DNA of 64,000 bases, taken from Tilletiopsis washingtonensis (Eukaryota > Basidiomycota > Exobasidiomycetes > Entylomatales). The stretch lies in the NCBI RefSeq assembly GCF_003144115.1, contig NW_020312008.1, positions 400,477-464,476 of the forward strand, read 5' to 3'. Made by a program: the position numbers and the translations under genes. Positions 21,238-47,870 of the stretch are shown here, piece after piece; within the stretch, counting starts at the first letter, position 1, and each line of letters begins with the position of its first letter. The notes below the pieces were generated by a model. The model had not been told where the DNA came from, searched no databases, and was given only the letters and a program-made list of their open reading frames with translations.

Positions 21238-22720
21238 TCACGATGCCTCTTGCTTGACCTGGCTGCTCGTCTGCGCGTCTGCCAGTGGGATCGGCCGCTC
21301 ATGCTCCGCATCAAGCTTCTCCTCGTCGAGCGACGTCTCGGCTTGCAGCTCGCCTTCGACCTGTGCGACGGCCTGTATCGCCTCGGCCTTGTCGTCGCTG
21401 AGCTCCACCTGAGCCCCATCCTCGACGGCCTCGACGCGATCAGGCGCTGTGAGCACGCGCACCTCCACGTCCTTCCACTCTCCTTCCTCTGCCGCCGTCT
21501 CGCGCTTCGCCACGGCCTCTGCCAGAGCACGCAGCTTGCCGAACCACTCCACCTTGCCGGGCAGCTGGTGCGTCGTGACGCGGCCGCTCGTGCTCGGCAC
21601 ACAGAAGCAGAGCGTGATGTGCGAAGGCGTCGCTGCGCTCGCAGGCTTCTTGTCGCCGTCGAGCGTCGGGATGTCGAGCTCGGCGTCGCTCTCGGCATAG
21701 CCAGCGATGGCGAAGGGCTGCAGGCCGAGGCCCGACTCATCCTCGGCTAGCGGCGTGCTGGCCGGCACGCGCACCCAGCGTCTCGTCGCCTCTGCTCCGC
21801 GCGTGGCACGCTCGAAGATCTGCGCAATGCCCTTGCCGACCATGACTGCGACGGCAGGGCGGCACTGCGCCACCTTGCGGATCAGCAGCGGCGCGCCAGC
21901 GGTGTAGTCCTGCGCCTTGAGGCCCGCGGCATCGCGTGTGGGTCGCGGGCAGAGGTTCGTCAGGCCGATGCGAAGATACGGCGCCTCTTGCACGAGCAGA
22001 GAGGGCCCTGCTGAGGGCAGGAACTTCGTAGGCGTCAGACCGGACTGATGCAGCGCCGGCCAGAAGTGCTGAAACAGATGAAGTGAGCGTCAAGCTAGCG
22101 GTAGTGCTTTCGTTGGACGCACATTCGAGAAGTGCGCAAAGTGATGGCCCGTCGCGCTAGAGGTGAGGCCCGGATTGATGCCGACGACGAGGACTGCGAG
22201 CGCTTTCAGGTGGTCTGCGAGGCAGAGGAGCTGCCGGCGCGTACTCACTGTCGAGGTCCGGCGCCAGATGGTCCGGCAGCAGCTTCAACACGCGCCCATC
22301 GGGCTGCTCGCCGAGCTCGGTGTCCTCCTTTGCCTTCGCCTTGCCCTTCACCCTCGCTTTGACCACCTTGGCCTCCTCTTCTTCCTCATCGGCCGCCGCC
22401 GCCGCCGCCTGCCCGCGAGCGGAGAGGCAGCGGGCGCGCTTCGGGTACCGGCGCTGCGATGGCTCATTGTCTTGAGCAGCTGCATCGCCGCCGCTACCCT
22501 CTAATTCCACAGCAGACTCTTCACCGCCGGTAGTGGCACTGCCGCCGCCGCTGCCCCGCTTGCCTGTCTGCGCATCCGCGCGGCGCGGCGGGGCCGGCTT
22601 GCCGCCGCGGAAGGAGTGGGCGTGGATGAAGGTCTGCGCGAGACGCGGCGGTGGCGGGCGCACCTCGACGTCGCCGGTCGAGGGCAGCAGCGGCAGACGG
22701 CGAGCCGGTGGCTGGCCCAT
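21238..22720 (-). CDS. G/T mismatch-specific uracil/thymine DNA glycosylase (TDG/MUG family)
   Basis: Base-excision repair enzyme removing U or T opposite G; nuclear. Exons: 22720-22249, 22214-22123, 22068-21238; 464 residues. The catalytic motif is VVGINPGLTSS with Asn171, followed by GHHFAHFSNHFWPALHQSGL, LRIGLTNLCPRPTRDA, and the second motif FCVPSTSGRVTTHQLPGK. The N terminus (about 150 residues) is low-complexity and basic/acidic with KAKAK clusters, and the C-terminal 100 residues are acidic Glu/Ala/Val-rich; both are accessory. Intron 1 is only 34 nt (GTGAGT to GCAG), but frame and motif continuity require its removal; intron 2 is a normal 54 nt. An open frame runs upstream of 22720, so the start could be further out. 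Confidence 0.9.
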
Positions 22721-23272
22721 GGCGGCGGCGGCGAAGGGCGGGAAGGAGGGGTGGAGGCGGGGAGCAAGAAGCACCGCCGCCGGTCGGGTCCGCCTTGCCG
22801 GCGGCGCGCGCCGCGGGGGCGCCAGCATGCGTGCGCCGCATGCGCAGCTGACGCGGCGCGGTGTGCTGAAACTGCCTTCACAACTCCCTCCTTCGCTGCA
22901 CCAAGCCTTGTGGTTGAGCTTCGGGCTCTGAGTAGCTGCCGTAACGATTGAAACAAAGTGGTAGAGGTGAGTGATAGAAAGCATGCCCCTTGAGTCCTTT
23001 GTGAAAGATGACAGAAGCCCTTCGGATGGTTGAAGAGTCGCGTCGCTCCGATGCCCAGCGCACCGCCACACGGCAGCAGAGCAGACGACTCGACGCACGA
23101 CTTGACCTAACGGCTACCTGATGGACGAGACAGCTAGCAGGGAGCTCAAAAGCAGCACATGCGGCTGCTTCCGCTGCCCCCACTCGCGCCCACGCAAGCC
23201 AAGTCGGTGCCGGGCTCTCGCGAAACGACAAGCCTCCCGCAGCCTCTTCGTTCTCTCCGCTCGATTCTCGTC
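22721..23272. other. Intergenic between divergent glycosylase and first array gene
   Basis: 552 bases. An open frame antisense in the first 380 bases continues the glycosylase N terminus but looks non-coding. No repeat or element was recognised. Confidence 0.5.
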
Positions 23273-24030
23273 ATGTCGCGCGCCTTCTCCAAGTGGCAAG
23301 AGGCCGAGACGAAGCTAATCCAGAGCCTGAGCAAGGAAGACAGAGATGATCTGATCGATTACGGACGCGCGGTGTTCACGTCCGAGGCGGCTCTCGCCAA
23401 ATTTGAGAAGGGACTTCGCGGAAGTCAGTTCGACGATCGACAGCTTGATTTCGGCGAAGTCGCTGAGGAAACTTTTCAGGCATGGAGTGCAGTCGTGTAC
23501 GGTGAGAGTCTACGGATTAGAGAGGTTAAGCCAGGCAAGACTGACGTTGCGGGACGTCTCGCCTTGCTTCAGCGGACTTGGCGCAGCCTGTGAGCAGCGA
23601 TCAACTTCGCCTCATCAAGAGAAGGCTGCGCGCTAGTTTCCAGCTTGAGCTCCTTCGACACGAGCAACTCGAAGTAGCGCAGCCCGAACGCAACGATGGT
23701 AGGGACAGTCAAGAGGCACTTGGGCTTGCGGGCGTCAACCTCCAGCTGCAGCTGGTTGACGTTCGCAACAATCTGGCCACTACGGAATCTGAGCTGAAAG
23801 CTGTGGTGGAAGAGCTGCAACAGACACGCTATGAGCTTCGAAAGCTCGAAGTCTACGCTGCGAACGATCGGGACAAGTGTCGTTGCACGCAAGATGACCT
23901 GCGCGCAGAGAGTTGGAGACTCGAGGCACGCCTGGGCCGGCTCGAGAAGACTACAAGCAAGCTGGACGAGGCTTACCAGCGGCAGACAGTCTCGACGGAG
24001 AACTCGCGCAGTCAGACCATGGAGGTCTGA
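23273..24030 (+). CDS. Array gene A: unknown family, coiled-coil C terminus
   Basis: Exons 23273-23501 and 23573-24030; 228 residues. Exon 1 (77 residues) is MSRAFSKWQEAETKLIQSL onward, ending FQAWSAVVYG at the intron. Exon 2 begins with a basic helix (QLRLIKRRLRASFQLELLRH) also present in array gene B. It then becomes a coiled coil (LATTESELKAVVEELQQTRY, LRKLEV, WRLEARLGRLEKTTSKLDEA) to the end. No signal peptide or membrane segment. Base composition is less GC-rich than the flanking housekeeping genes, with codons such as CTA, AGA and GGA. I do not recognise the family and claim no function. The ATG at 23273 is preceded by a pyrimidine-rich leader. Confidence 0.78.
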
Positions 24031-24789
24031 TCCGCAGAACCTCTCGACGACCGCGAGCTCGTCATCGAGGTCGTCCTTTTCTCGCTCGCGGCGTGTCGCT
24101 ATCGCCGCCCTCACATCGCTCTCGCTCGAGGCCGTCTTCGATGGACAAGCGAACGCGTGTCCAACATTGAGATCTTTGCGAGCCGTGATCCAGCTTGCCC
24201 GCACAACCGCCGACCTTAGCTCCTCATCTCGCCGTACTCGTCGTGTAGGATCACGCGAGGATGGTGATGAAGAGCTGAGTTGGAAAGCGGCGTGCGACGA
24301 CGCGCGTGTGTATATGACAGAAAAAATCACGTGACCGACACGTCGTCCTCGTCTTCCCTCTCTCCACATTGAGGCGGCTCCGTGTGTCCTCCATTGCGCC
24401 ATATGCGACGCAGCCTCACCTTTTGGGGTCTGTCTGAAATGTCAACCTTTGCTCCTGTACACGAGGCACGTTCCAGCGCGCGATTAGATCCAGCCTCCTG
24501 CTGACCCTCGAAGAGAGAGGAGTCATCGCGTCGTGTCTTCTGCTCAGTCTACCCGCTTCTTCAATTAAGCTGAGACTAAGTCCTCGTGAAATCAGCTTCA
24601 GCATCGAGAAATGAAAGCCAGCGCAGAGATGAGCCGAGCGTGAGGCGCGACGTGGGGAAGCGAAAGAGGAGGCGCCGCGTTGTATAAGAGCCGCGCGTCT
24701 TTGCTGATCTCTCATCTCGGCCCCGTCCCACAAGCCTCATTACCGCACCCACGGCTCGAGCCCCAACGTCTCCGTCTCGATCCAGATCA
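24031..24789. other. Intergenic between array genes A and B
   Basis: 759 bases, visibly more AT-rich than the window average. It contains a TATA box at 24683. No gene was recognised; antisense open frames here are shadows. Confidence 0.55.
24683..24688 (+). promoter_or_regulatory. TATA box of array gene B
   Basis: TATAAG in the context TTGTATAAGAGCC, 107 bases upstream of the ATG at 24790. It is the clearest TATA element I saw in the window. Confidence 0.5.
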
Positions 24790-26224
24790 ATGCGCGGAGA
24801 ACCTTCGCCTCAGTTCGAAGCTTGGGCCGCGGCCGAAAGAGAAAAGCTACGCATGCTGGAGGCATGGCAAAAGCAAGAGCTGCGTTCGGCTGTATCTCGA
24901 GGCGAGATCTGCAATCTGTCTCTCTTCGAGAAGAAAGTGTCGTCATGCTTGGAGTCCAATCAACAGCTTCGTCTAGCAGCAAGAGCCGAACGAGCTTACT
25001 CAGACTGGTACTTAACAAGAGCTCATGGTAAGTGGCCGCTGCAGTCCACACATTGCTGGCGCTAAGCCCGGACACCTGCCAGTCCACAAGTGTCTGTGCC
25101 AGGCTCGCTTTGTCGAGGGCATCGATGGCGAAGTCATCACACGTCACCTGCGCGCCAGTTTTTGGCAGCAATTTCTCGTCATGGGTGACCCCAGCGATAC
25201 GATCAAGCGCAAGAGACCCGTACAAGAGGAAGATCTCCTGAGAAAGAAGAACACGGAGCTCGAGACTCAGCTGGATGAGCAGCAAAAGTTGTACGAGCAG
25301 CTCGCAGAGCGAGAAGAGCACCTTTCGGATTGGTCGTCACATCTGGAGGGTCGTCTGAAGGCTCAGCAACAGTGGAATGGAAAGCTTGACAAGTCGTTGG
25401 AAGACGAGGCAGTGACGTCAGCAATGGCGGCCTTGCAGCTAGGGGAGCAAGGAATGCTGCTTGTCAAGCAGCGCGACGACATCGAGACACAGCGCAAGAC
25501 CAATGCGGAGCAGCGTCAGGCAAGCGACGACCAGCTCGCAACCATCGAGCAGCAGCGCAAGACCATCGAGGCGCAGCACGCAACAGGTGAAAAGCATCTT
25601 CAGCAGATCAAAGAGCAGCTCGACGCCATTGACGAGCAGGCCAGAATCATTGACCAGCAGAGCAGACTCCTGGACGAATATCAAGCCATCATCAAGACGC
25701 AGGCCCTCACTCTTCAAGCCTTTGTCGACGGAAGCAAGCGCGAGGCTCCCTCAATGACCAACGATATCGAACGCCGGCTGACGGAGATCGAGTACAATCA
25801 GACCTTGGCACTGAAGCGCACCCGTGACTGCCTTCTCGAGCGTCAAGCAGGCGCGGAGCAGGCCGAGAGTTGCAACAAGAAAGACGAGCGAGCCTCCTCA
25901 CCGAGCCTGGGAGACCTTCGCACAGCTTTTGAGCAGCAAGAGATGCTCGAGGCTCGCGTGTCCAATCTTGAGGACACCATTGCGTTTGGCAACATCAGTG
26001 ATCGACTGGAACGCCTCGAGGTCGCTTCCACGCTAAAACTCGAGGCGGACGCCACGGCCCGGATCGACCTTGATCGTCGTCTCATCAGCGTGTGCGAGAA
26101 CATGTCGCAATTCGAACGTCGTCTGGCTCTACTCGAAGCCACCTCGACGGCCTCGACGACTTCCTGGCTGCTGTCGCCTCCAAACCACAGCGATTATGAT
26201 CTCTCTGCTTTTGACGTCACTTGA
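24790..26224 (+). CDS. Array gene B: unknown family, long heptad-repeat coiled coil
   Basis: Exons 24790-25027 and 25083-26224; 459 residues, the longest member. Exon 1 (PQFEAWAAAEREKLRMLEAW ... NLSLFEKKVSSCLESNQQ ... ERAYSDWYLTRAHG) aligns with gene A around the shared FEKK/FEKG and the closing aromatic-Trp segment. Exon 2 opens with EVITRHLRASFWQQF, the counterpart of the LRASF helix of A. A KRKRP basic patch follows, then an almost continuous coiled coil: residues about 213-289 are eleven seven-residue units such as IEQQRKT, IEAQHAT, IDEQARI, IDQQSRL and LDEYQAI. A second coiled segment (ARVSNLEDTIAF, ISDRLERLEVAST, FERRLALLEATST) precedes a Ser/Asp tail. No catalytic motif. Likely a self-associating scaffold, by inference only. 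Confidence 0.8.
25481..25723 (+). repeat. 21-bp periodic heptad repeat inside array gene B
   Basis: Eleven consecutive seven-codon units with Ile/Leu first and usually Gln fourth (IETQRKT, NAEQRQA, SDDQLAT, IEQQRKT, IEAQHAT and so on). The protein period is exact with no indel, consistent with expansion by 21-bp duplication or strong selection on a coiled coil. Confidence 0.75.
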
Positions 26225-27077
26225 GCGGTAGTTCAAGGTTGAGGGCTCCGTACACAATCCGACTGCAGTCAAGACCGCCTCAGAGTCGTTTGACCTGTCA
26301 GCGACGGCGCCAGAGTGGCTGAACGGTTCGCAGTACCTCACAGTCAGCTCTCCTCTCCGGAGGACTCGCAACCACCAGAAGCTCTCGTCCTCGTCTCACG
26401 CGCTCGTCATCCTCCTCCGATGCTTGACGCTCTGCCGACGCCTCTCTTCAAGCTCGCTACCTCACCCGCCTCAGTCTCTGGCCCGCCTCAGTCTCTAGTT
26501 TGAATGACCCTGTCTCTCACAAAACCTTAATATCACGACTTCTGCTCTGTTTACTCTCATCATTGTGCCCTTCTGATGCTGCACTTTTGCTCTCTTTGCG
26601 GACGGTGGTGTCGCAAGACGAAGTGTCCTCGAAACGTCAGAGATGCTGCTGTAAGCGGCGCCTTGAGGTGTATCTTCTCGGAGGAGCTGAATGAATCTCT
26701 CCCGGCCAAGCACCTCAAATACGAGATGCTCGGAGTCCCGAGCCGGTCCTTCCGTCCAAGAAGGGTCAGCGCTTCCGGTGTAAGTGGGATGTCTTCTTGC
26801 AAAGCACATGAGAGCGATCGCGCAGCGCACTAGGGGGCGGACCGCCGCCAGACCTAATCAGTCGGAACGCGTGAGGCCGGCCAGCAGTCTGGAAAGACGG
26901 TAGATTGACAGATGCGGGACGCTCGATGCTCGGTGCTCATCACGCGGCCTCCTTCTGCTGATCGACTGGCTGGCTGGAGGGACAGCGGTCTCGTCGGCGG
27001 CCGCATCTCTGCCCACCACCACAGCACCCTTCGCTGCCGACTACCTCTCCTGCCACCGCCTTCGCATCACCACCGAC
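26225..27077. other. Intergenic between array genes B and C
   Basis: 853 bases, more AT-rich than average. Short open frames of about 80-110 codons exist on both strands (26495-26833) but match nothing I know and overlap antisense. A tRNA-like word near 26308 does not fold further. Confidence 0.5.
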
Positions 27078-27726
27078 ATGAGCAACAGCATGAGCGACAC
27101 TCAAGACTCGCACGACCAGACGTGGGCCTGCCTGGCTCAAGAGCAGGTCCCCACATCCTCTTTCCGCAAGTGGCAGGAGGCCGCGACCGCGTTCTATGCC
27201 GCATTGGAGCCGGAAGGGCGCAACAGCTATGTCGCCGATCAGATGCGCGTACCCTGGGACGTCAGCAGCTCCGATGACCTCGACTACGCAGACAAGTTCG
27301 AGCAGCGTCCGGTGCGCAACGTTGCTGCGCTCCGCGAGACTGCCGGCGCCCACCTGCTCGAGGCTGACGACTTGGAGATTGAGTCGCTCCTCACTCGATT
27401 CTGGGCGAGTCTGAGGACTGGTGAGTCGTCTCAAAGCTTAAGCTTGATACCTGGACCTTACTCACACACGCACGGAAGACGACGAACGTGAGGCGGCCGA
27501 GGATAGCAGTGTCGAGACCAAGAGAGCACAGGCAAGGATGTCGGCGATCCTCAAGCTGCAGCTACTGGCTCAGGCCAAGAAGCTGGCCGCCAGCGCCGGC
27601 ACGCCACAGGAGATGGAAGCGAGCGAGAGCGACAACGATTCAGAAGCGGCTGCTCAGTCCGATGCAGAGTTGTCTGGCGTGCCGCGCAACGTGAGTCTAT
27701 CGCCGCAGGATGAAATCGTCTGCTGA
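27078..27726 (+). CDS. Array gene C: unknown family, shares the KWQEA module
   Basis: Exons 27078-27420 and 27479-27726; 196 residues. The first exon is longer (114 codons) because of an N-terminal extension before SFRKWQEAATAFYAALEPEG, which closely parallels AFSKWQEAETKLIQSLSKED of gene A. It continues DDLEIESLLTRFWASLRTG to the phase-1 intron. Exon 2 begins acidic (DDEREAAEDSS), then a helix RMSAILKLQLLAQAKKLAAS and an acidic Ser/Asp tail. The acceptor (GGAAG) is weaker than its neighbours. Unknown function; short, soluble, acidic. Confidence is moderate because the second exon is short and low-complexity. Confidence 0.68.
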
Positions 27727-28414
27727 GACGCTGTGAGAAGAAGAAGATGAAGCGCCATCGCTCGTCCTCATCGGAGTGAACGCTCGATGGTGCCCTGACC
27801 CACCAAGAGTACAATACTCCTTTGCGTCAAGTTGCCGGCACGATCGAGTCCCAAGTCCTGTATCATTCCGCATCGACGGCACTTTCTCCTCGCCGCGTCG
27901 TCGACACGTTTCCTCGACTTTGCCTCTCCTCACAATCAGCTCTGCGTCCCGGGTGCCAAGCTCCCTCACGCGCTCGTACTGTGCGACTGCTCCGAAATGA
28001 ATCTTATTCGCCTCACGTCTACTGCTAGTCGGTGTCATGCTGCGCCTGCGTGCCTGCGTGCCTTCGAAGGACGTAGCCCCCGGCCTTTTGACGCGCACGC
28101 GCCGCGTCGCGCTCGGTGTTGGGACGCGCCGCACGTGGCTGGGGCGCTGCAAGGCATCACCTTACGCCTGAGCGTGATGCCGAATACACCGACGCTGCCC
28201 CTAGACAAAGCCACAGCGAAGCCGAGACGAAGTAGAGTGCCTGTCAGCGAGCGCTCTGCTGCCCCGCCTGCCTCTGAAGCTGAGCTGCTGCGTCGTGCGC
28301 TGCTCGTGCTCGCCAGGCCAGCTCGGCCTCTGTCGTCCTCACCACCACCTGCCTCGCACCGCAGCGCGCATCCCAGCACCTTTGTCAGCTCTTCACCTCA
28401 CATAGCTCGCCGCC
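27727..28414. other. Intergenic between array genes C and D
   Basis: 688 bases, AT-richer in the first 300 and strongly GC-rich in the last 400, so a composition step lies near 28030. No gene was recognised. Confidence 0.55.
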
Positions 28415-29216
28415 ATGCCGCCCAAGCAGTCCCTCGCACAGGCCATCGCCGCGTGCCGCGCCGCCGTGCTCGCCTTCCGCAACAGCCTCGACGGCGAGCA
28501 GAAGAAGCTCTACACGGCGTGGGCCATCTCGAGCCTCGAGGCGCCGACGTGCGACCACTGCCAGCACGGCTACCTCTACGTCGACCACGCGCATCGTGCG
28601 ATCCCCGTCTTTCTCGAGTCGCTCAACCAGCAGCAGCTCGAGGCGCGCTGTGCGCTCGATGACCAGTTCGAGGCGCTGCTGGACCGTCTGTCTGGAAGTG
28701 AGTGCTGCGTGGGGTCTTGCCTTGAGTCTTTCCCTTCACGTGGTACGGATGCTGACACCTTCTGCAGACGGCGAGGCCGACGAGCCCGTGCTGCTGCAGG
28801 CCTTCATGGAGCGCCTTATCCTCGCCGAGAACGCGACGCCTCGCGGCGGCAACAGCGCGGGCAGCAGCTCGAACGGTGGCGCCGTTGTTCGCTCGACTGA
28901 GCGCGCCGGCAACGGATCACAGGTCGTCAACCCTCGCGGACGTGGCCGCTCCGAGCGCCCTCTCTTCGAGGTGACCTCGACGCTGGTCAACATCAGCGAC
29001 ATGCCCAGCTACATCGCCAGCCTGCCTCCCGGCTCGGGCGCGGCCGCCGCCGCTCGTGCGACCCACGCGCAGATGGAGACGCGCCGTCAGCCGCAGTCTC
29101 TCGGCCCTGCGCATGGGGCCGAGCAGCGCACGGCCAGCTTCGATCCTACTCCAGCCGAGATGCATGAAGCGGAGAAGGGAAAGAAGGCAGAGGGTAGCGT
29201 CAAGCAGGCACAGTGA
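28415..29216 (+). CDS. Array gene D: unknown family
   Basis: Exons 28415-28697 and 28768-29216; 243 residues. Exon 1 is MPPKQSLAQAIAACRAAVLA, FRNSLDGEQKKLYTAW, a CDHCQHG segment, then VFLESLNQQQLEARCALDDQ and [10 protein letters not shown]. It resembles gene F closely (LAFxxxL...Q+..YTAW, and ESLNQQQLEARxxLDxQFxxLL against QSLNKQQVAARYRLDEQFDRLL). Exon 2 opens EADEPVLLQAFMERLILAE, then turns Gly/Asn/Arg-rich (VNPRGRGRSERPLFEV) and ends in a charged tail. No signal peptide or catalytic motif. The first exon is exactly as long as that of gene E (283 nt). Unknown function. Confidence 0.8.
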
Positions 29217-29861
29217 GGGCCGTCGTTGGTCGAGTAAGTCGGGCAGCTTCAACTCTCTGTGAGGCCTGCACATAGCGGTCGTTTGATACCTTGCCCTGCA
29301 GCTGAGCTTAGCCGTTCGCTCCGCAGCTCGACGCTCGGCTCCTCATTCTTCCCAACCAAGTCCTTCCTCTCTGTGTCGTACGCCGCCATCTCGAAGTCAC
29401 ATGTCAATGAAGCCGGGTCACTGCACGCGAAGCAGGCAGAGGAGTGTGTCGAGCCGAGAGGCGGATCGTTCATCTAGAAGAGCTTTGCAGCGGAAGCACG
29501 TGCGCTCTTCTTCCAAAAGGAGGTGAGGCTTGACCAGGAACAGAGAGACCGCCCCTGTCAGGGTCACTTCGCGCTCCTGAGGCGTGCTTGGGAGATCTTG
29601 CCGCAACGCTAAGTGCTCTATAGCAGGGAGAAAGGCAATGAGTGCTGTGTCTGGCTCGTCTCCGACCCCTGAGGAGGACCTGTTGCTTCTTTCGTCACGC
29701 TGCCGTACAGACGAGTAGATTCTACTTTGACTCGACTCGACCTTAAGAGAGCTCTACTCCCTGCACACCCATAACACTACCCCACCGAAGCCCGAAGCTG
29801 CTCGTCCGTGTCATCCTCGAGCGGCTCTTTCCTTCGTTCATTCCCTCATAGCGGCATCAAC
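29217..29861. other. Intergenic between array genes D and E
   Basis: 645 bases, pyrimidine-rich near the E start. No coding or structural signal was seen. Confidence 0.55.
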
Positions 29862-30508
29862 ATGCCTCTGCAACCGCTCTGGTCGCTTCTCTCCCGCTTC
29901 CACTCGAGAGTGCTCGAGTTCGACAAGCATCTCAACGAGGAGCAGCAAGAGCTCTTCAGAGAGTGTCTCGACGACGAGATCGCGGAGCCACAAGTCTCGG
30001 ATGGCAACGAAGCAGAGCGCGAGGTGGCCCAGGGCTCTGCCAGGCACGCGCTTCTCGAAGCCTGGCAGGGCGACGCAGCGCGCCTGGCGGAGAGAGCCTG
30101 TCTCGACGCCCTCTTCGCTCAGATCGTAGAGCACATGAAGAAGGGTGAGTGTCCTGCAATGTGCTGAGGTGCACTGACGCTGACTCACGCTACTTGTCTC
30201 GACCAGATGAGCCGTCCTCTTCGCTGCAACGCAACGGCGTCCAGGCTCTCGTCGAGCGCTTGCTGATCAAGGCAAAGGATCCCCCGGACGAAGCTTCGGA
30301 CCCGGACGACATTCCGCACAACTTCAGTCACTTCGTGGCGGAGTCCCTCGACGGTCCCACCTACGCCGAGATCAACCAGCTGATGCGCATGATCGACGAG
30401 ACGCGCATGACCCTCGAGTACCTCGAGGAGCATCTGGAGGTCATCACGGGAGGCTGCATTCCTGAGTGCTGCATTACCTACGCCAGACGCAGAATGAGAG
30501 GACGCTGA
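29862..30508 (+). CDS. Array gene E: unknown family
   Basis: Exons 29862-30144 and 30207-30508; 194 residues. Exon 1: MPLQPLWSLLSRFHSRVLEF, DKHLNEEQQELFRECLDDEI, then LLEAWQGDAARLAERACLDA and FAQIVEHMKKG. It follows the array pattern (aromatic helix, then L-N-E-E-Q-Q). Exon 2: EPSSSLQRNGVQALVERLLI, the counterpart of LLQAFLERILTAE in F. A unique C-terminal part then has two helices (YAEINQLMRMIDETRMTLEY, LEEHLEVITGG) and a Cys-containing basic end (CIPECCITYARRRMRGR). Strongly acidic in the middle. A GTG upstream could extend the frame, but ATG at 29862 fits the family start. Unknown function. Confidence 0.75.
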
Positions 30509-31290
30509 GGCGCACGCTGTGCGGCGCTGCTCGTCAGCGCCGTGTATGAGCGCCGAGGACGCCTGCGTCGCGTCGAGCTATATCCCATCGCTAGCCGCAA
30601 GAACGACTCACCCGCTCGCAAGTGCGCCGTCTTGCCCTCTGCCACCTCACATCTGTCCTCTTTCTGCCCTTTCAACGTCAGGGCGCTCCACTGCGCCGTC
30701 CGTTCGACATCATGTCGCCGTCAATTCAACTCTTTTGCTCGCTGCGTGGAGTTGGCTGCGACCAAGTCAGTCTCCATGTCTCGAGCTCTTTTTCCCTCGC
30801 TCTTAGTACCATACGCGACCATCGAAATGGCGCTCGCTGTGCGATGCGGCGATGATGCTCCTCTGCACGGCGTCGCTTGCGGTGCGCAGTTGTGGCACCC
30901 CCTGGCGTCACGCGTGCGGCGCGCTGCAGCACGGCGGCGGCGCTGGGCGCGGCACAGCGGCTCGCACCATCTGCATAGCGGCAGCGCAACTGGACTGCTT
31001 TGCTGCGCTGGCGGTACCGCGGATGTGCTACCGCCCCTATCTCTGCTTCATCTCTGCGTGTTGTTGTGTCTGCGCTTCCGCTTTTGGACGCAAAGTGCTC
31101 GCCAGCGCGTCACTCAGGTGCAGCGCCGCGCAATGTGGCGTCCCAGAGGGGCAGGGCAAGACAGGGAGGACGTGCTGCGCGGCTGCCAGCGCAGCGTCCA
31201 TCGCGAGCTTGTTCAAGAGCCAGCGCCGCCCGCTGCGGCCTGCTTCAGCACCACCATCACCCTGTCACACGCTGCCGCTCGCCTCGCACC
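30509..31290. other. Intergenic between array genes E and F
   Basis: 782 bases. Several overlapping open frames but no recognisable product. The final 150 bases are GC-rich and precede gene F. Confidence 0.55.
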
Positions 31291-32150
31291 ATGGCCGACT
31301 CCCTCTCGCTCGTGGCGCAGCTCAGCGCCTACCGCGGCGCCGTGCTGGCCTTCCACGCCACGCTCTCGCCGGCGCAGCGCACCAAGTACACCGCCTGGCT
31401 GCTCGGCCACCTCTGCCCGCCCGAGATGGTCACCTGCGCCAACAGTGCCGAGATGCACGTGCACTGGGTGCGCCCGGGCCTGCTGCCCTTCGAGCAGAGC
31501 CTCAACAAGCAGCAGGTCGCGGCGCGCTACCGCCTCGACGAGCAGTTTGACCGCCTGCTGATGTGCGTCGGCAACGGTGAGTGCGGCAAGAGCTCATTGA
31601 GGGGAGCACCGAGTCGATAGTGTGCAAAGGCTCACGCCGGCCACCTCCAGGCTCGCTGCCCGACGAGAGTCCCGAGGTGCTTCAAGCCTTCCTCGAGCGC
31701 ATCCTCACCGCCGAGGGCGGCACCGCCGCCACAACGCCCTCTCCTTCGCGCGCCAGCTATCCCTCGACGTACGAGCGCGAGAGCATCGTCGCGACGACCA
31801 GCTTCGCCCGCGTGCCCGGCGGACGCGCTGCCGCTATCGCTCTCGCGGGAGCCGCGGAGCTCGCGGGCCTCGAGCGCCCTTCGGCATCGGCCATGCGCCA
31901 GGAGTCGCTGATGGATGCACTGCTCGGACGCATCACCGAGCTCGACATGTCCGACGACGACGAGTACGAGTACGACGAGGATGACTCTGAGTACGGCGCC
32001 AACTTCATCTACATGGACAGCATGCTGGAGCGCGAGCTCTACGGCCCGCAGCGCGCGATGCCGGCGGCGGCGGCGCCCAAGCCTCCCGGACAGGGCCAGG
32101 CCAAGCGCAAGCGCAGGGGCAAGAAGGGCAAGGGCAAGAAGAAGGCTTAG
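31291..32150 (+). CDS. Array gene F: unknown family, acidic centre and basic tail
   Basis: Exons 31291-31576 and 31651-32150; 261 residues. Exon 1: MADSLSLVAQLSAYRGAVLA, FHATLSPAQRTKYTAWLL, FEQSLNKQQVAARYRLDEQF and DRLLMCVGNG. Exon 2: LPDESPEVLQAFLERILTAE, a Ser/Ala/Arg stretch, MRQESLMDALLGRITELDMS, an acidic cluster (DDDEYEYDEDDSEYG), FIYMDSMLERELYGP, and a strongly basic tail (KRKRRGKKGKGKKKA) that could act in nuclear or nucleolar localisation. Closest to gene D in exon 1. High GC3 like the neighbouring housekeeping genes. Unknown function. Confidence 0.8.
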
Positions 32151-33099
32151 CTGTGAGGCGATGTGCGTGCGAGACGCGAGGTACAGCAGCTGACCTGAAT
32201 GCCGATCAGCGACCCGAGCCTTAAGCCGCAAGGACGTCTCCAAGCACTCGCTTCCTTCCGCCACCCGTAGCTCTCGCTCTCCTTCCGTCCGTCTTGATCC
32301 CGACTCGTTCCACGTCTCGTCTACGCCCCTGCCTGTATCAAGCTCGCATCGCCGGCATGACCTACCACTGCCTCCGAAGTGTCACCTTTCATCGTCGTGT
32401 CTGCACTTGTGACTGAGCTCGTGTGTCTTGAAACCTCGTCATCTGCTCAGCACTTGCATCGAATGCCCAAGGCGTGTTGCCGCTGATGATAGAGCACAAA
32501 GAAGGTGCGCGGTCACGCACGATGTGCTCCCCAACGGTTGGGCAGCGCTAGTGGTGCGGGCAGGGCAGTCTGAGTAGACGCGAGAGTCACGCGCCCCTCA
32601 CCAACGGCTCTTCTCGCGAGACCGCAAGGACTTCTGACAGGCCACCACGACTGCGCCTCCCTTCTCACTCCATCTGCGCCGCGTGTAGCAGTCGAGTGAG
32701 ATTGCCTCACAGCGCATAAGCGTAGCCAGCGCCCGGAATCGAGCGCGAAGGGCTAGCCGCACGGATCTGAGCCGCACGGGACACACAGCCTGGCGAGAGG
32801 CTGCTCTCACGCCCCTATGCGTGCTGCGCAACGTCGAGCGCGTTCTTGCGGTAAACACGGCTGCGCTTCCTCATTTGGACGTGTCTCTGCCAGCTTGCCC
32901 AAAGTGAGCGAGACCTCCTTCTTCGAGAGCGCCCGCCCGCTTGAACCTGCTGCAAGGGTGCAGGCGCTGCGGTGCTGGGTGGCGTCAGCCTTCTCGAGCT
33001 GCCTGGCCGGGCGCTCTTGCTGGACGCTTCGCTCAGCTTCACCATCTCTGCGCTTCAATCGTCGCTCGTGCACTCATCCATCCTCGTCGGTCCTTCAAC
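32151..33099. other. Intergenic between array genes F and G
   Basis: 949 bases, the longest gap in the array. No coding signal or repeat was recognised on either strand. Confidence 0.55.
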
Positions 33100-33812
33100 A
33101 TGCCCTCTCAGGCGTCGCTTTTGCAGGCGGTGGCCGATTACCGCAACGGCGTGATCGCCTTCAGCCATGGCCTGAGCAAGGAGCAGTTCAAGGAGTACCG
33201 GATCGCACTGCAGCACCAGATCGCCTATCCCCACTCGCCCGCCAGTCTGATGACGAACGCTTGGTATGGCATGGACGACCTGATCGCGGAAGATCAGAAG
33301 GAGCACAGAGCGCGCCTTTTCACGGCCTTTGAAGAGCTTCTGCCTCGCATGACTGGCAGTGAGTGTCGCCGGGGACGCATGATGTGGATCAAGCTCACCA
33401 CTACTCCGCCTCTGTCTCAGACCGCAAGCCCGAGATGCGCTACAACCTACTGGCCTTCCTCGAGCGCTACATCATCCTGGAGGATGAGAACGCCCGGTCA
33501 TCCGCCCGGTCATCAGCAACGTCGCAGACTGGAGGCGGCCTGCAGCAGCGCGTCGCGAGTCTCGAGCATCGCGCCGACCACAACGAAGACGTGGTCACTT
33601 CGCTCGGCATCTCGATGCAGAGCGCCGACGGCGACCTACATGACTGCATTGCGCACGAGAAGATGTTGCGAGACATGAAGATCTATGAGGTGGTCGAGCA
33701 GGCGATTGCGGCGCGCATGGCGGACGTCAGGGCGCAGTCTCTCAAGACCATCTTGCTCGAGCAGCGTGTCGGCGAGCTGCAAGCCAAGCAGCAGCAGGCA
33801 AGCGCCCTGTAA
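33100..33812 (+). CDS. Array gene G: unknown family, stops inside a coiled coil
   Basis: Exons 33100-33358 and 33421-33812; 216 residues to the first stop. Exon 1: MPSQASLLQAVADYRNGVIA, FSHGLSKEQFKEYRIALQHQ, ARLFTAFEELLPRMTGN, clearly of the D/F type. Exon 2: RKPEMRYNLLAFLERYIILE, then GGGLQQRVASLEHRADHNED and a coiled coil KTILLEQRVGELQAKQQQAS. The TAA at 33810 comes directly after GCC CTG. The same frame then runs on for another 78 codons with coiled-coil character (see next entry), so this allele looks truncated or uses read-through. Unknown function. Confidence 0.75.
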
Positions 33813-34046
33813 GAGCGCTTCTCCAGTCTCGAGGCACGCTTCGCCGAGCAGCGCACCGAGAAGCGCATCTCTCAGCGCGACGAGGAGCTCAAGCAGGCTC
33901 ACAAGCGCATCGCCGAGCTCGAGGCTGCGCTGGCGAAGACGCAGCTTGCCGCGGCCGAGCCTGTTCTCACGGCGAGCGCCTCTGGTGCGAGTGCTGGTGG
34001 CAGTGCCGACGACGAGACTGCCGCTGCGGCCTCGGCTGAGAAGTGA
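33813..34046 (+). other. In-frame coiled-coil continuation of gene G after its stop
   Basis: 78 codons in the same frame as gene G, immediately after TAA: ERFSSLEARFAEQRTEKRIS, QRDEELKQAHKRIAELEAAL, then an Ala/Ser/Gly/Asp-rich tail ending SAEK and TGA at 34044. The hydrophobic heptad phase fits the upstream coil. A single C-to-T change of a CAA Gln codon would explain the stop. No splice pair of realistic length removes it in frame: the only in-frame GT-AG is 18 nt. Confidence 0.7.
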
Positions 34047-34418
34047 AGCTGCTCAACCACAACTTGTCTCTCGCGCACTGTCTGTCTTCAGTTCGCAGCA
34101 TCCTCAAGAGCTACGACCATGCGGAGCGTCTCCAGCCCTTGTCTCTACTTGTTTCTCCAACGTCCCTATGCGGCCACTCTCCTGTACACGACACACCCAT
34201 CTCGCTGCGAGACGATGACGAGCGCGGTCCTAGTGATGAGCATTGTACAGAGGCGGTCGTGAGCTGGATGTCGAGAACGTGGAGCAAGGGGCGCGAGACA
34301 GAGCTCGGCGCCGACGGCGGCGCAGGTATGGGATGGGAGAAGGCGGCAGCGCAGACAGCGCTGCTATGTACACGGAAGACGCAGCGAGAGGAGGAACGAG
34401 TCGCGGACGGGCGTGCGC
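34047..34418. other. Intergenic between array gene G and RAB5
   Basis: 372 bases between convergent genes. No feature was seen beyond likely 3' UTRs. Confidence 0.55.
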
Positions 34419-35841
34419 TCAGCAGTTGCACGCATCGCCACGCCCGGCACCGTCGTTGTTGCCGACGCGCAGGCCGCCGCCACCGGCCGTCCGGCCGGGC
34501 GTGCTGGCAGCGCCGGCGGGAGCAGCGGCGCGAGCCTGCGCCTGCTGCGCTGCGATGGCGTCGATCGGGATCTTCTTGGCTGTGGGGGCGCGTCAGCAAG
34601 CGCTGCGGCACCAGTCAGAAGCGGACTCACCAATCTCCGTGAAGAGCTCCACCACACCCTCGCCCGTCTTTGCACTCGTCTCAAAGAACAGCAGGCTCGT
34701 CTCCTGCGCGTATGCCTCGGCCTCCTCCTTCGGCACAGCACGTGCGACGCCGGGCGCAGTATCGGCACCCGTCGTCGTAGCCGCATCGTCCTCCTCGGCC
34801 GCCTCAGCCTCCGTCTCCTCAGCAGCCGCCTCGCCCGAGCCGGACGCAGCTGCCGGCGCGGCGCCGAGCAGGTCCAGCTTGTTGCCGACGAGCGCAATGA
34901 CGATGTTGGGGTTCGCCTGCCGTTGCAGCTCCTTGACCCATGACTTGGCCTTCTCGAACGAGCTCTGCGAGGGTGTGTGAGCGGATGCACGTAGAAGGGC
35001 AAGTGCGGACAAGCTCTTCGGGCGTCACTGTCCCATCGAGGAGCCAGGGCCTCATGCCGACTTTGAGGGCCTCACGCTCCACATTGCCTCAGACGAAGCT
35101 GCTGCTGCTCCAAGGTCGCAGCTCCGTCGTGGATCCGACAGGTAGCGCAGGGACTCTACTCTGAGCGTGTCCTGCCCTCCGCACGCCGGCCGCACATCTC
35201 CGCAGACTCACCGCCTTGGTCACGTCGTACACGACGGCGGCGGCCTGAGCGTTGCGGTAGTACATGGGCGCGAGCGAGTGGAAGCGCTCCTGGCCCGCCG
35301 TGTCCCAGATCTCAAACTTGATGATGGCGCTGTCGAGACGGCATTTTTGCTGTGCGAGAGCGGAGTGAGCCGATGCAAGGTAGGGAGATCGGGACACTGG
35401 CCAGACCGCAGAATCGGCCGGGACCTCCGCCTGTCTGGCCCAAAGGGCCCTGTCTCGGCCTGCGCCGGATCACGGCTCGGTTCACCGTCCGCTGCGGACA
35501 GCTCTGCAGGCAATAGCGCAGGCAATGGCATCTGCTGCGCTCCACACTACGCAGCGCACGCCAGAGCCGGCTGTGACCGCACTACACAGCAGCGCATACA
35601 CCTCTGCTCGCCAGCAGCGCCTCTCCATACCGCCCCCGATCACACTCCCAGTCCCGCGACTGACCGTGAGGAAGGCGGCGCCGATGGTGGGCTCCTTGTT
35701 CTCGACGTACTCGTCGCTGACGAAGCGCAGCACGACGCTGCTCTTGCCCACGGCGGCCTCGCCGAGCAGCACGAGCTTGGCCTGCCACGGCTTCTGCGGC
35801 GCGGCGGCGGCGGGTGCGGCGGGCTGTGCGGGTGCGGACAT
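34419..35841 (-). CDS. RAB5: Rab5-type endosomal GTPase
   Basis: Small GTPase controlling early-endosome fusion. Exons: 35841-35665, 35349-35212, 34964-34631, 34579-34419; 269 residues. G1 is GEAAVGKSS (27-35), switch I Thr52 in PTIGAAF, G3 WDTAGQE (74-80), G4 GNKLDL (132-137) and G5 [15 protein letters not shown] segments [20 protein letters not shown] are Rab5-like. The C terminus ends DACNC, a CxC double-prenylation site. An acidic Ala/Glu/Asp insertion of about 50 residues (from [16 protein letters not shown]) sits between G4 and G5, making the protein longer than the usual 215. Introns 1 and 2 are long for this window (315 and 247 nt). Rab family is certain and the Rab5 call strong. Confidence 0.94.
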
Positions 35842-36907
35842 TGGGAGAGGCGAGGGTGTGAGGGTGGAGAGGCAAGGCTGGCGCGGTGGCACGTGGACGC
35901 CGTCAGGAGGTGCGTGCGGCGGCGACTTGGCGGCGCTGGCGGGGCGGCGCGGCGGGCTGCTCCCACGCAGTGAGCCGTGCTTATGTCAGCATGGCGGCGG
36001 CGCCTTGCGGGTGCGCTTCTCGCCGTGCGCCAAGCCAAATATTGCTCATGCGCATCGCCAGGCACCGCGCCAGCTCGCCGCCGCCACGCAGCGAGCAACA
36101 GCGCGCGCCGCGCTCAAGTCAGCCCTCCAGGCGCGGGTCGTCCCCCGCGGCGCACCCTCGAGGGGACTCGCGGCTGGGCTCTCGCATCTCGACGGCCATG
36201 CTCCAATATGGGCAATGCGCGCAGAGTGAGAGCAGGCGAGCACGAGAGCAGCGCCACAGAGCAGGGCGGCTGCCGTCACACGCAACACAGCAGCGCGCCC
36301 GATGCGAGGTGTGGGCGCCGCCGCATGGCAGCTGGCACAAAACAGCGGCGTGGTCCGGCGTGGTCCGGCGGTCGCTGAGGTGCTGCGGCTGCTGCTCCCA
36401 GGATGCTGCGCCGAAAGCTGATTCTGTTGCCGAGACGTCGAGAAGCATGCCTTCGTGGGCTTTTGAAGGAGGCGCTTGGTGGATCACTTGGCACCGATCG
36501 CCTCCTGGACCAGAGTCAGCACATGTTGAGCCGGACATCTCTCGCTTTGGCTACGCCGTGCTGCATCTTGCTGTCTCGTACGAGAGGAAGAGCTCCCGCC
36601 CCCGCCTTTTCCCTCTTCCCCACACTTCGGCACAGCGGCGATTTCGGCAAGGTTGCCGAGCGGGCAAGGAAGGGTACGCCTCGCTGCGGCTGGCTCGCAG
36701 CCTCACAAGCGCGGCGCTCCGCCCGCGCGGGGCGACATTTGATCCGTCGAGTTGGCCTTAGCGCGCCTTGTCAGGCACAGAGGTGGAGAGGCGCACGAGA
36801 CACCCCCGCACTTTGCTCCCTTGCGGGTGTGAGCTCACATCCGCAGCGTTGCGTATGCTGCGCCTTCTCTTCCCTCAACATCCTCCAGCCACCCAAGCCA
36901 ACGCAGC
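35842..36907. other. Promoter region between divergent RAB5 and MFS genes
   Basis: 1066 bases. It holds a directly repeated 10-mer TGGTCCGGCG at 36351-36370. No gene was recognised; open frames here are Arg/Ala-rich shadows. Confidence 0.55.
36351..36370. repeat. Direct 10-bp repeat in the RAB5/MFS promoter
   Basis: TGGTCCGGCG occurs twice back to back. It may be a paired regulator site or chance; nothing else supports it. Confidence 0.5.
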
Positions 36908-42779: not shown

Positions 42780-45700
42780 ATGAACGGGCCCGGCGCGCCC
42801 ACCGGCGCCGGCTCGCCTGGCGCCGGCTTCAACATGGGCGCTCTCGATCCTGCGCTGCTCATGGCCGGCACCGGCGGCGGTGCTGGAGGCCAGCAGCAGC
42901 AGGGCGGCGCCGGCCAGATGGCCAACCTCGGCGGCGGCGCGATGCAGGGCATGCCCGCCAACTTCGGCGCCGGCGGCATGCCGCAAGGCATGTCTGGCAT
43001 GAACCTGCAGATGCAGATGCAGATGCAGGCCATGCAGGCCATGCAGAACGCCGGCTTCGCCCAGCAGTCGCAGCAAGGCGGCATGGGCATGCCGCCGCAG
43101 CAGCAGAACATGCAGCAGAACCTCGCTGCCTTTCAGCAGCAGCTGTTGCAGCAACAGCAGCAGCAACGGCAGCAGCAGCAGCAGCAACAACAGCAGAGCA
43201 TGCAACAACAGCAGCAGCAGTCGCAGCAGCAGGGCCAGTCGCAGCCTCAACAGCAGCAGCAGGGCGGCCAGCAGTCGCAGCAGCAGCAGCCGAATGCCGG
43301 CGCCGCGGGCGGCGGTGGGCCGGGCTTCGGGCCAGGCGGACAGATCCACAACCCGATGCAGATGCTTCAGGTGAGTGTTCTTGAGCGTGTGGACGCTACT
43401 CGAGAACGAGAGCGGTGCGGGTGCTAGTCAATGGCCTCTCACGGAGGCTCAGCCGGGAAGAGAGCATCTGGACTTAGCGCAGAGCTGGCAGACGTGCCAC
43501 GGCCGAGAGCGCGAGACTCACACGTCTGCCAACAGGCCATCGCCGGCAACATGTCAGCTCTACAGCGCCAGTGGGCCGCCGTTGCGACACAGCCCGACTC
43601 GCAGCAAAAGACACAGGCGCAAACGCATCTCGGCATGCAGATGAAGCGGCTGCAGGCCATGCGCACGCAGGCGATGACCGCTCTGCAGGCCTCGGGCGGT
43701 GCCGCTGCTCTCGGCGTCCAGCCCGGCCAGCAGTCGCAAGGCCAGCAGCCGGGCCAGCAGCAGCAGCAGGCACAGGGCACGCCGCAGCAGCAGATGGCCT
43801 CCGGCATGGGACAGCAGCCCGGCGGGCAGCCGCAGCAGCCGCAACAGCCGCAGTCTAGCGGCATGGGCGCCGCTGCCGAGGCGGGCGCGCACCAGGCCCA
43901 GCTTGCGGCGCTGCAGGCCTTCGCTCAGCAGCAGCGAGCCTCGCAGCAGCAGGTCGGCCGCGGCAGCCAGGGCAGCGTGCCCGATCTCTCCCAGCTGCAG
44001 GCGCAGATGCAGCAGCAGCAGCAACAGCAGCAGCAGGCGCAGCCGCAGCAGCAGCAGGGCCAGCAGCAAGGGCAGCAACAAGGTCAGCAGCACATGCAGC
44101 AGCCATCCTCGTCCGGCGATGCGCAGCAGTCTGGCGGCCAACCGCCCTCGCGCGACTTTCTGCAGACTGTGCGCGCCTTCATGGCCCAGCGCGGCACGCC
44201 GCTGCAGCCAAACATGCCTCTCACGTTCTACGGCCCGTCTCTTACGCCGACGCCCGCCGAGCCGACGCGCGCCGTCGAGCTGCAGCCGCTCTTCGCCATG
44301 GTGATCAACGTCGGCGGCTCGGGGCGCCTCAACTCGACGCCCGGCGGCTGGGCGCAGATCGCGCAGCGCCTCGGCCTCGCCGCGTCTACGTCGCCGGCGC
44401 CCGTGCAGGACTCGGGCGAGGGCTTTCCGACGCCCGACCAGGTACCTGGACGCCTCGCCGTCTGGTTCCGCGACCGCCTCGGCCAGTTCGAGCAGTTCTG
44501 GCTGCAGCGCATGCGCACCAACTCGGCCGGCTCGTCGGCGCCGCAGCTCGCCGGCTCGCCGGTGCAGAGCGCCCCGCAGCCGCCCGCACAGCAGGCTCAG
44601 AGTCAGCCGCAGCAGCTCGGCCAGCCGCAACAGCAACAGCAGCAGGGCCAGATGCAGCAGCAGCAGGGTCAGATGCAGATGCCGCAGCAGCAGCAGATGC
44701 AAATGCCGCAGCAACAAGGGCAGATGCCGCAGCAGCAGGGCCAAGCGCAGCAACAGCAGCAGCGTCCGCAGCAGCAGGCGGGTGCGGCCGCTGGCGCCAT
44801 GGGCGCGCCGCAAATGCCCAACGTCACCATCGCCCAGGCGCAGCAGCTGCAGAACGCCTTGCCGCAGCAGATGCAGCAGCTCCAGACGCTCGTCAACGCG
44901 GGCCGCATCACGATGGACCAGGCCAAGCTGCGCTTCACGCAGATGCAGCAGAACGCCGCGCGCGCCATGCTCCTCGCCCAACAGCAGCAACAACAGCAGC
45001 AGTCGCAAGCCGGTCCCTCGTCGCAGCCCCAAGGGCAGACGCAGCAGCAATTCCAGAACGGACAGCAGCCGGACGGCCAGCAACGACCCGGCACGGGCCA
45101 CAGCGCGTCCGGAGGACAGCAGTGGAACGCCGGCCAGCAGCAACAGCTGCAGCAGATGCAACAGCTTCAGCAGATGCAGCAGCAGCAACAGGCGCAGCAG
45201 CCGGGCCAGCAGCAGGCGCAGCAGCAGCTCCAGCAGTTCCAGCAACTCCAGCAGCTCCAGCAGATGCAGGCGATGCAGCAGGGCAACCCGATGCAGCAGC
45301 ACGCCGGCATGCAGCAGATGGGCGGACAAGGCCACCCGATGCCGATGCAGGCGCAGCAGCAGCAGCTCCAGCAGCAAATGCAGCCGCCGCACCAGCAGCA
45401 ACAGCTTCCACAGCAGCAGCAGAACATGCAACAGCAGATGCAGCAGCAGCAGAGCGGCCTGCCGCCTCATCTCCAGCAGCAGTCCGCCCCGCAGCAGTCG
45501 ATGCAGCAGAGTGGCGCGCCCAACACCCAGCAGCACGTGCAAGGTATCTCCGGCCCGCCGGTGCCCTTGATGCAGGCTCCGCCGACGCCAAAGGAGGCGA
45601 AGAAGAGCAAGCCGCGCGCTCGCAAGCCGACGATGACCTCCGAGGCCGGCGGCGTGCCACCGCCAGATGCACCGCTGCCGACGTCGCAGGCGCCTGGCGC

Positions 45701-47870
45701 CGCTCTGAACCCGCAAGCGCCCGATGCCGCATCGCAGCAGCAGGGCCAGCCCGGCTCGCAGGGTACCGCTCAGTTCCAGGCCGCGCAAGCTGCCATGCGC
45801 GCGCTGCAGAGCGGCACGCTCAACCGGCAACAGCAGGAAGCTGCGTACGCAGCTGTGCGGGCCGGTACTGCTGGTCTGCAGCCTGGCGCACGGGCACCGC
45901 AACCAGCGCAAGGCGCACCGCAGAGTGTGCCACCGTCGGGCACCAGCGCGCCTGTCCCGCCGCCCACGATGGCTGTCGCCATGCAGCAACAGCAACAGCA
46001 GCAGCAGGCCGCCGCCGCAGCGGGCGCACCCTTAGCGCCAGGTCTTGGCGCTGCTGCCGCGCAGGCACTCGCCGGCCTGCCGGGCCAGGGCCAGGCGAGC
46101 GTGGCGCCTCCGCCGCCGAGCAAGTTCAAGATCGAGTACATGCCAATCCGCCGGGATCTGAAGAGCCACGGCGGCTGGGACCTGGAGCAGGTCGACGAGG
46201 TGCTCGGTCCGACGCTGGAGGGCCGCGGGCGCCTGCCGCGCACGGTTCGAGAGCTCGGTCTCATCGACGTGCTCGGCCTCACGATGTCGCTGCGGAGCCG
46301 GCTAGAGACGGAGGTTGCATACGCGCTCAACGCTCTCTGCATCATCTCGGCCGGCAGCGGCGCGCCGCCCAACATCGAGTACACCTTCCCGCTCGCCCCT
46401 TGCGAAGATCTGCTCGACGAGCTGCTCGAGCTGCTCGAGGAGTCGGCATTCGGCCGCGACGAGGATGCGCTAGATGCCACTCTCACCTCCGAGCGCGTGC
46501 CCGCCGACGGGGAAGCGGACGTCACCGCACCAGAGAACCTCACGCATCGCGACTGGGTGCTCGCAGCCCTCGAGGACGAGGAGAACCCGCAGCCTCTGCG
46601 CCGGCGCAGACGGCGGGCGCTGTCCATGCCCGAGACGGACGAGAATGGCGCCGGGCCATCGCGCAAGCGGCGAGCGGTCTCTCGGCTGCGCGCCACAGCC
46701 GACTCTGATCCCGGCGCGAGCGCGTCTACGCCGCCAGCCAGTCCGCCAGCACGCGCCGCAAAAGCTGACGACGACGAGGTCGAGGAGCTGTCAGGCCCAA
46801 AGCACTGGGCGTCGCTCCGGCAGGAGCGCTTCGCCGAGCGCTCAGCAGCGCTCGCGCTGACAGTGCTCGACATCGTGCGCAACTTCTCGGTCATGCCGGA
46901 CAACGTCGAGCTGCTGGCGCAACATCCGCGCGCGCTGCGTCTGCTTGCGCGCCTGTGCGTGGCCACAGAGCGGGAGACACGCGAGATGCTGCATCTGCGT
47001 GGCGCGCTCAAGGAGCCAGAGGCAGAGCTGGACGACGCCTCGCGCAGCAGTGCCGCCGACGAGGACGAGCGGACGGTCTTCACGCCGGCAGAGGCGCTGC
47101 GCGTGCGCAAGGATGTGCTCGCCATGCTGTCGCACATCGCCGGCCCTCACCTGCGGCTGTCCAAGCTTGGACGATCGGCGACGATGGCGCTCTTCGACCT
47201 GCTCACCGCCTTCATCATCGACGCCGGCGACATGGAGCACACGTCTGGCCGCGTCTGGAGCACCGACATTGGTGGCCCACCGCCGCAGCCCGGCCAGCGG
47301 CCGCAGCTGCTGAACCGCAAGGTGCCGCAGCACGCCGACTCTGCGCTCGATGCCTTCTCTCGCTTCGCGCAGCCGGACGAGAACCGCGAGGTGCTCAGCG
47401 CGATTGTGCCGGCCGCGAAGCTGCTGCGCCTGGGCACGTGCCTCACGCGCCTGCTGCCGGTCAGCGAGCTTGACTTCTACATCATCAAGACGGAGGGCCG
47501 GCTAGCGTACCACGAGCGCGCGGCGATGTCGCTGTACAACATTGCCTTCCTCGCGCCGCCGCGCATCAAGGCGGCACTGCGCGATGCGCCGGGCGTGCCG
47601 GGCGTGCTGTACCGCTGTGTGCGCAAGCTGCTCAAGGTGCACGCCAACTTCGAGGCGAACCCGTTCAGCTGCCTCGTGACGCGCCTGGCCGAGACGCTGC
47701 GCCTGCTCTCCGACGGCAACGACACGTTTGCCACGCTCAACGGCCGCCACACCGCCACGGCGCCCGGCATTCTCGTCGACGAGCTCATGGGCGTGCTCGA
47801 CATCTTTGCCACGGACAACATCGACCCGGGCCTGGTTGCTGAGCTGGAGGTCACTGTATCGACGACGTAA
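42780..47870 (+). CDS. SWI1: SWI/SNF chromatin-remodelling subunit SWI1 (ARID protein)
   Basis: DNA-binding subunit of the SWI/SNF remodeller; nuclear. Exons 42780-43370 and 43536-47870; 1641 residues. Residues 1-400 are Gly/Met/Gln-rich with poly-Gln runs. The ARID spans about 404-518: DFLQTVRAFMAQRGTPLQ, TFYGPSLTP, ELQPLFAMVINVGGSGRL, WAQIAQRLGLA and FEQFWLQRM. Residues about 530-1050 are a second Gln-rich region mixed with Pro, Ala and Met. From about 1056 a folded C-terminal half is typical of SWI1/ARID1 (FKIEYMPIRRDLKSHGGWDL, LTVLDIVRNFSVMPDNVELL, VLAMLSHIAGPHLRLSK and the segment around LARLCVATERETREML). Antisense of the Gln tracts produces long Leu-rich shadows only. Convergent with the UCH gene, 38 bases between stops. 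Confidence 0.92.
43129..43293. repeat. CAG/CAA poly-Gln tract in SWI1 (first)
   Basis: Dense mixed CAG/CAA codons encoding nearly pure Gln runs. Mixed codons reduce slippage, so the tract is probably kept at the protein level. Further tracts lie at about 43980-44100, 44580-44780, 44960-45540. Confidence 0.8.

Follow-up and report, generated by a model that had tools for sequence, protein, structure and literature searches.

For fungal effectors, a tandem arrangement of small and diverse orphan genes is typical, and basidiomycete homeodomain mating-type proteins carry a variable N-terminal dimerization region. In aphids, the bicycle genes have diverged to the point that gene structure is an aid in revealing their homology, and they are described as implicated in plant galls (PMC9168663). 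Here, we describe an array of seven genes in a 64,000-nucleotide stretch of Tilletiopsis washingtonensis DNA (assembly GCF_003144115.1, contig NW_020312008.1, positions 400,477 to 464,476; hereafter, the window). The array spans positions 23273-33812 of the window, with all seven gene models on the + strand. Judged from sequence, the array is real, apparently undescribed, and seemingly restricted to one lineage, and its evolutionary kind is a familiar one; genes 4 to 7 are solidly linked by similarity and genes 1 to 3 may form an older branch.

Seven two-exon gene models share a phase-1 intron

Gene models were built by splicing the two exons together at selected sites. Consistent with the preliminary description of this DNA as a same-strand, two-exon array with a single phase-1 intron, each of the seven models contained one phase-1 intron of 55 to 74 bases after an exon 1 of 76 to 114 whole codons plus one base. 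The donor was GTGAGT in five genes, GTGAGA in gene 1, and GTAAGT in gene 2; six of the seven introns ended in a CAG acceptor, and six contained a CTNAY motif, which was absent from the gene 2 intron. For genes 1, 2, and 3, the acceptor giving the longest exon 2 was retained from three tried for each, and these models depend on that choice. Gene 3, with an AAG acceptor, is the weakest model. The features are as follows, with p values from the pairwise shuffle tests given below.

23273..23501, + strand: gene 1 exon 1, ending at the phase-1 donor GTGAGA
23573..24030, + strand: gene 1 exon 2, charged, with leucine-heptad runs; acceptor picked from three
24790..25027, + strand: gene 2 exon 1; p 0.002 against gene 1
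25083..26224, + strand: gene 2 exon 2, long, possible coiled coil; start at p 0.004 against gene 1; acceptor picked from three
27078..27420, + strand: gene 3 exon 1; p 0.005 against gene 1, 0.007 against gene 4, 0.008 against gene 6
27479..27726, + strand: gene 3 exon 2, AAG acceptor picked from three
28415..28697, + strand: gene 4 exon 1, predicted helices at residues 7-24, 27-41, 62-69, and 72-93
28768..29216, + strand: gene 4 exon 2, LQAFMER stretch, then a Gly/Ser/Ala-rich tail
29862..30144, + strand: gene 5 exon 1, from exon-1 pair tests and the leave-one-out profile
30207..30508, + strand: gene 5 exon 2, from similarity at the exon-2 start
31291..31576, + strand: gene 6 exon 1, from exon-1 pair tests and the leave-one-out profile
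31651..32150, + strand: gene 6 exon 2, LQAFLER stretch, acidic stretch, and Lys/Arg-rich C-terminus
33100..33358, + strand: gene 7 exon 1, from exon-1 pair tests and the leave-one-out profile
33421..33812, + strand: gene 7 exon 2, ending at the in-frame TAA 33810-33812
33813..34046, + strand: open frame of 77 codons past the gene 7 stop, at most possibly translated

An in-frame ATG lies 114 bases 5' of the gene 1 start (23159-23272) and would add 38 residues. At the other end, the array had been drawn to 34046, beyond the gene 7 stop, because the frame remains open for 77 codons past the TAA; we place the end at the stop. The TAA and the open codons that follow it (33810-34046) may reflect truncation or unusual processing. 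We considered introns that would remove this stop, but of 49 candidates (38 to 124 bases) only 15 kept the frame and none of these had a GTRAG donor.

Genes 4 to 7 form one duplicated family

We compared exon 1 in all 21 pairs among the seven genes, with p values from 1,000 shuffles. All six pairs among genes 4 to 7 were alike in exon 1 (p<0.05), as were five of the six at the start of exon 2, where LQAF(M/L)ER or a variant recurred. In leave-one-out analysis, each gene was scored with a profile of the other six (exon 1 plus 45 exon-2 residues, with gene 3 lacking its first 24 residues) alongside 2,084 background fragments and 1,000 shuffles each. Genes 4 and 6 (expectation value [E] of 1e-14 for both), gene 7 (1e-5), and gene 5 (7e-4) were recovered ahead of all background fragments and shuffles. 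Profiles of exon 1 only gave weaker recovery, with E of 1e-10 to 1e-9 for genes 4 and 6, 0.006 for gene 7, 0.2 for gene 5, and 0.7 for gene 1; genes 2 and 3 were not among the matches listed. Identity to gene 4 in exon 1 was 36% for gene 6, 33% for gene 7, 22% for gene 5, 19% for gene 1, 18% for gene 3, and 11% for gene 2. These similarities on both sides of the intron solidly point to genes 4 to 7 as members of one duplicated family.

Exon 1 of gene 4 is predicted to be helical and tails differ

The AlphaFold model of gene 4 exon 1, built from four sequences, contained the four helices given above with a mean predicted local distance difference test score (pLDDT) of 78 and a predicted template modeling score (pTM) of 0.65; residues 50-59 were uncertain. 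An internal repeat of two hairpins within exon 1 was not detected at p<0.05 in any of the seven proteins. The tails differ: that of gene 2 is long and heptad-like, that of gene 4 is Gly/Ser/Ala-rich, and that of gene 6 is acidic and then basic. The preliminary description of exon 2 as often coiled coil was not confirmed; a coiled coil is suggested for genes 1 and 2 only, and crude tests gave nothing for the other five. One periodicity test placed gene 2 above all 100 of its shuffles, but a second did not, with values as high in 7% and 15% of 60 shuffles. Gene 1 contains leucines seven residues apart, yet it did not stand out in the periodicity tests.

In agreement with the earlier view of these proteins as nonsecreted, no secretion was evident by crude hydropathy, with a highest 19-residue value across the seven proteins of 1.15. 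Genes 4 and 6 encode a short hydrophobic helix near the start, with 10-residue maxima of 1.95 and 1.57, respectively. Upstream of the genes, the commonest 7-letter words occurred in five of the seven array stretches and in 17 to 18% of background stretches, uncorrected for the number of words; we base no conclusion on this.

Searches for relatives found only copies from the same species

The claim that the family is unrecognized was borne out, as none of the seven proteins reached a Pfam cut-off (best, 18.1 bits against a cut-off of 27.6). Searches of NCBIfam with genes 4 to 7, of Rfam with positions 22000-36000, and of PDB sequences gave nothing usable. Two profile searches of 5.8 billion proteins, in one of which 8,000 candidates were scored, returned seven sequences in total, four per search with one common to both. 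These matches were genes 1, 3, 4, and 5 (five rows encoded by the window) and two variants. A Joint Genome Institute (JGI) copy of gene 4 exon 1 (P0002) had a single residue changed, at position 14; genes 6 and 7 have the residue of P0002 there. A database copy of gene 5 (P0004) had a different, shorter C-terminus, possibly from a frameshift or sequencing error.

Neither of the two protein-database searches returned a relative from another species. Because they also missed genes 2, 6, and 7 of the array itself, absence elsewhere is soft. As a coverage control, we searched with a ubiquitin hydrolase, whose nearest match was a 95% identical JGI protein; among the best 120 of 501 matches, the best named ones were from Malassezia and Acaromyces at 55 to 58% identity, and many further named matches were from Ustilaginomycotina, to which the fungus apparently belongs. 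By this single control, annotated smut and Exobasidiomycete proteins are present in the database. Since this conserved enzyme is only about 55% identical to its named relatives and array members are 11 to 36% identical to gene 4, relatives of the array could easily be missed, and the absence of found relatives is no sign of new birth. Thus, of the proposed lineage-specific expansion, we retain that only own-species copies were found, and we do not take their absence elsewhere as established.

We also searched the 18.7-Mb genome of 32 contigs, in which the window lies on C11 (728 kb). Exon-1 queries from genes 1, 2, 3, 4, 6, and 7 and the spliced gene 5 matched only the array, apart from one match with an E of 0.6. 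The sensitivity of these single-protein searches extended to 39% identity; known array members less similar than this were missed. The exceptional match, on C3 (L004) beside a frame that is DCP2-like by our reading, was judged to be due to chance. Genes 4, 6, and 7 also served to build a DNA pattern, which had no further site in the genome, those three being found by construction, and profiles detected no convincing member in 100 kb on either side. The best match outside the array in this range (E of 0.05 over 35 residues) lies some 88 kb upstream of the window, in a frame of 70 residues (L014:2208-2417). This frame contains an LSEEQ-type helix like that in exon 1 of genes 4 to 7, has a stop soon after, and may be a chance likeness or a decayed relative.

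With gene 4 exon 1 as the only query, no relative was found in bacterial and archaeal genomes. The one match of this query among viral contigs, to L035 (27 residues, 48% identity, E of 2e-5 calculated over candidate stretches only), was in AT-rich sequence and was also judged to be due to chance. Within limited search terms, we found no description of the array in the literature, including in passages of PMC11687029.

A possible docking role and its alternatives

We propose, at a probability of a little over one in three, that the array encodes intracellular docking proteins with a common helical head and variable tails, multiplied by tandem duplication. Each protein would stay inside the cell, with exon 1 folding as a small helical bundle and the conserved exon-2 start adding another helix packed against or next to this bundle. 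Bundle and helix together would make a dimerization or docking module, and the gene-specific tail would give each copy its own partner or location, so that the array would supply adaptors or scaffolds with one common docking head. Of this proposal, a head common to the copies and their origin by duplication are likely; the docking role is what we infer beyond them. Points in favor are the phase-1 structure of all seven models, the likeness of genes 4 to 7 across the intron, the helical gene 4 model, the different tails, the low maximal hydropathy, and a codon model described below. A more elaborate form, in which a new helical docking domain lets paralogs with different tails form specific mixed oligomers for intracellular combinatorial assembly or recognition confined to one smut-fungus lineage, appears improbable.

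Several results weigh against the docking proposal. Genes 1, 2, and 3 were not recovered by the leave-one-out profile (E of 1.3, 110, and 67, respectively). The AlphaFold model of gene 1 exon 1, built from three sequences, had three helices with a pTM of 0.33, too weak for comparison, and neither exon-1 model had a convincing match in PDB (with a structure aligner used for gene 4 only). In codon analysis of genes 4 to 7 (120 codons, kappa of 2), an omega of 0.05, the lowest tried, outperformed an omega of 1 by 39.3 log-likelihood units, and the same difference was 8.7 to 35.2 in shuffled and realigned controls (20 of 20 below 39.3). Because these controls come close, most of the codon-model signal is due to aligning by similarity, and the constraint signal beyond them is only modest. 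Synonymous sites were saturated, with 17 substitutions per codon over the tree. Ratios of nonsynonymous to synonymous change (dN/dS) by the Nei-Gojobori method (NG86) were 0.95 for genes 4-6, 0.75 for genes 4-7, and 1.24 for genes 6-7, giving no support for constraint; we gave NG86 low weight because third positions are GC-rich and saturated. Selection on genes 4 to 7 may lean to constraint. The low identities fit the earlier description of the family as fast-diverging, but with NG86 near 1 and the codon model toward constraint, they may reflect either fast change or great age. In view of the shuffled controls, we weighed the docking explanation lower and raised two alternatives, that the array holds more than one family and that its genes are under weak selection.

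The seven genes had been described as a single family, which is secure for genes 4 to 7, with genes 1 to 3 only possible members. Genes 1-3 and genes 4-7 may instead belong to unrelated small families, two or more in number, that adjoin by chance with a coincidental intron phase, an alternative that we consider doubtful yet serious. Scored with the profile of the other six, genes 2 and 3 were equaled by 476 and 442 of 1,000 shuffles, respectively, and gene 1 by 21 of its 1,000 shuffles and also by 2 of the 2,084 background fragments; with a profile of genes 4 to 7, 51, 204, and 68 of the 2,084 fragments scored as high as genes 1, 2, and 3, respectively. Genes 2 and 3 did not match each other in exon 1 (p 0.46) or exon 2 (p 0.27), between-group pairs reached p<0.05 in 3 of 12 cases for exon 1 and 1 of 12 for exon 2, and some intron sites were picked by us. 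Alignment of the two group profiles with hhalign gave a probability of 6.8%, yet its P value was 0.0054, and all seven models have one strand and a single intron at the same place and phase in common. Genes 1 and 2 were alike on both sides of the intron (p 0.002 and 0.004), and gene 3 exon 1 resembled that of genes 1, 4, and 6 at p 0.005 to 0.008 among the 21 pairs, by which gene 3 might weakly bridge the groups. On these comparisons, we favor a single family that split long ago (a probability of roughly two in three), with genes 1 to 3 possibly the older branch.

For the role of the genes, the foremost alternative to docking, although rather unlikely, is that selection on these orphan genes is weak or decaying, that they are little expressed, and that they share no molecular role. 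The gene 7 stop with its 77 open codons, the altered C-terminus of the gene 5 variant, the NG86 ratios, and a third-position GC of 0.66 and 0.65 in genes 1 and 2, below the 0.78 to 0.91 of genes 4 to 7, would fit such decay, but splice signals are good in most copies and the codon model for genes 4 to 7 leans to constraint above all 20 controls. That a plant-associated fungus deploys these proteins as effectors, leaderless or secreted unconventionally, would suit the tandem-array habit of effectors; we consider this improbable given 1 to 7 cysteines per protein and, by crude hydropathy, no long hydrophobic N-terminus, though genes 4 and 6 have the short helix near the start. Still less probable is a role in allorecognition (self/non-self), for which a multicopy, divergent family without a recognized catalytic family would be suitable. 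The two variants, one with a single changed residue and the other with an altered C-terminus, are a small sample and argue at most weakly against it. Linkage to mating type was not seen, as homeodomain (PF05920) matches were on C7 and C22 and not on C11, and the homeodomain motif W-F/Y-x-N/S-x-R was absent from window stop-to-stop frames of at least 25 residues. Intracellular docking thus remains our preferred, though tentative, reading.

Genomic surroundings of the array

We compared 20 open frames of the window with Pfam, and those that matched are ordinary eukaryotic genes. The nearest matched neighbors of the array are a uracil-DNA-glycosylase gene upstream and a Ras-superfamily gene downstream, the latter Rab5-like by our reading; others encode a mitochondrial carrier, an aminotransferase, an FtsH-type protease, a ubiquitin hydrolase, and an ABC transporter. 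Between the glycosylase gene and gene 1, a 318-residue frame on the - strand (22160-23113) had no Pfam match. Within the window, GC is lowest at 24001-28000, the region of genes 2 and 3 (0.57 to 0.59, against 0.63 to 0.71 in other 2-kb steps). A long glutamine-rich frame at 43428-47867 contains a BAF250/Osa C-terminal domain and many CAG-type repeats. RNA interference is absent from some smuts; an Argonaute gene with Piwi and linker domains by Pfam (3550-6167) suggests that this fungus may possess it.

Comparison with known systems

The family appears to be undescribed, its fungal lineage has been little studied, and its predicted helical domain had no catalogued family match in our searches. 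The array offers a tractable case of how orphan families arise by tandem duplication, with one domain kept while tails diverge. Its interest is as an orphan domain, short of a new system or mechanism. Like the effector clusters of Ustilago and related smuts, apparently of the same subphylum, it consists of small, divergent orphan proteins encoded in tandem; unlike them, its proteins have no evident signal peptide by hydropathy, are predicted to be helical, and are encoded with one phase-1 intron per model. With basidiomycete homeodomain mating-type proteins, the array shares a divergent N-terminal domain, here predicted to be helical, but no homeodomain-like motif accompanies it in the window frames and the PF05920 matches lie on other contigs. 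Compared with aphid bicycle genes (PMC9168663), the array shows a similar degree of divergence at which gene structure aids homology, in another kingdom and with another architecture.

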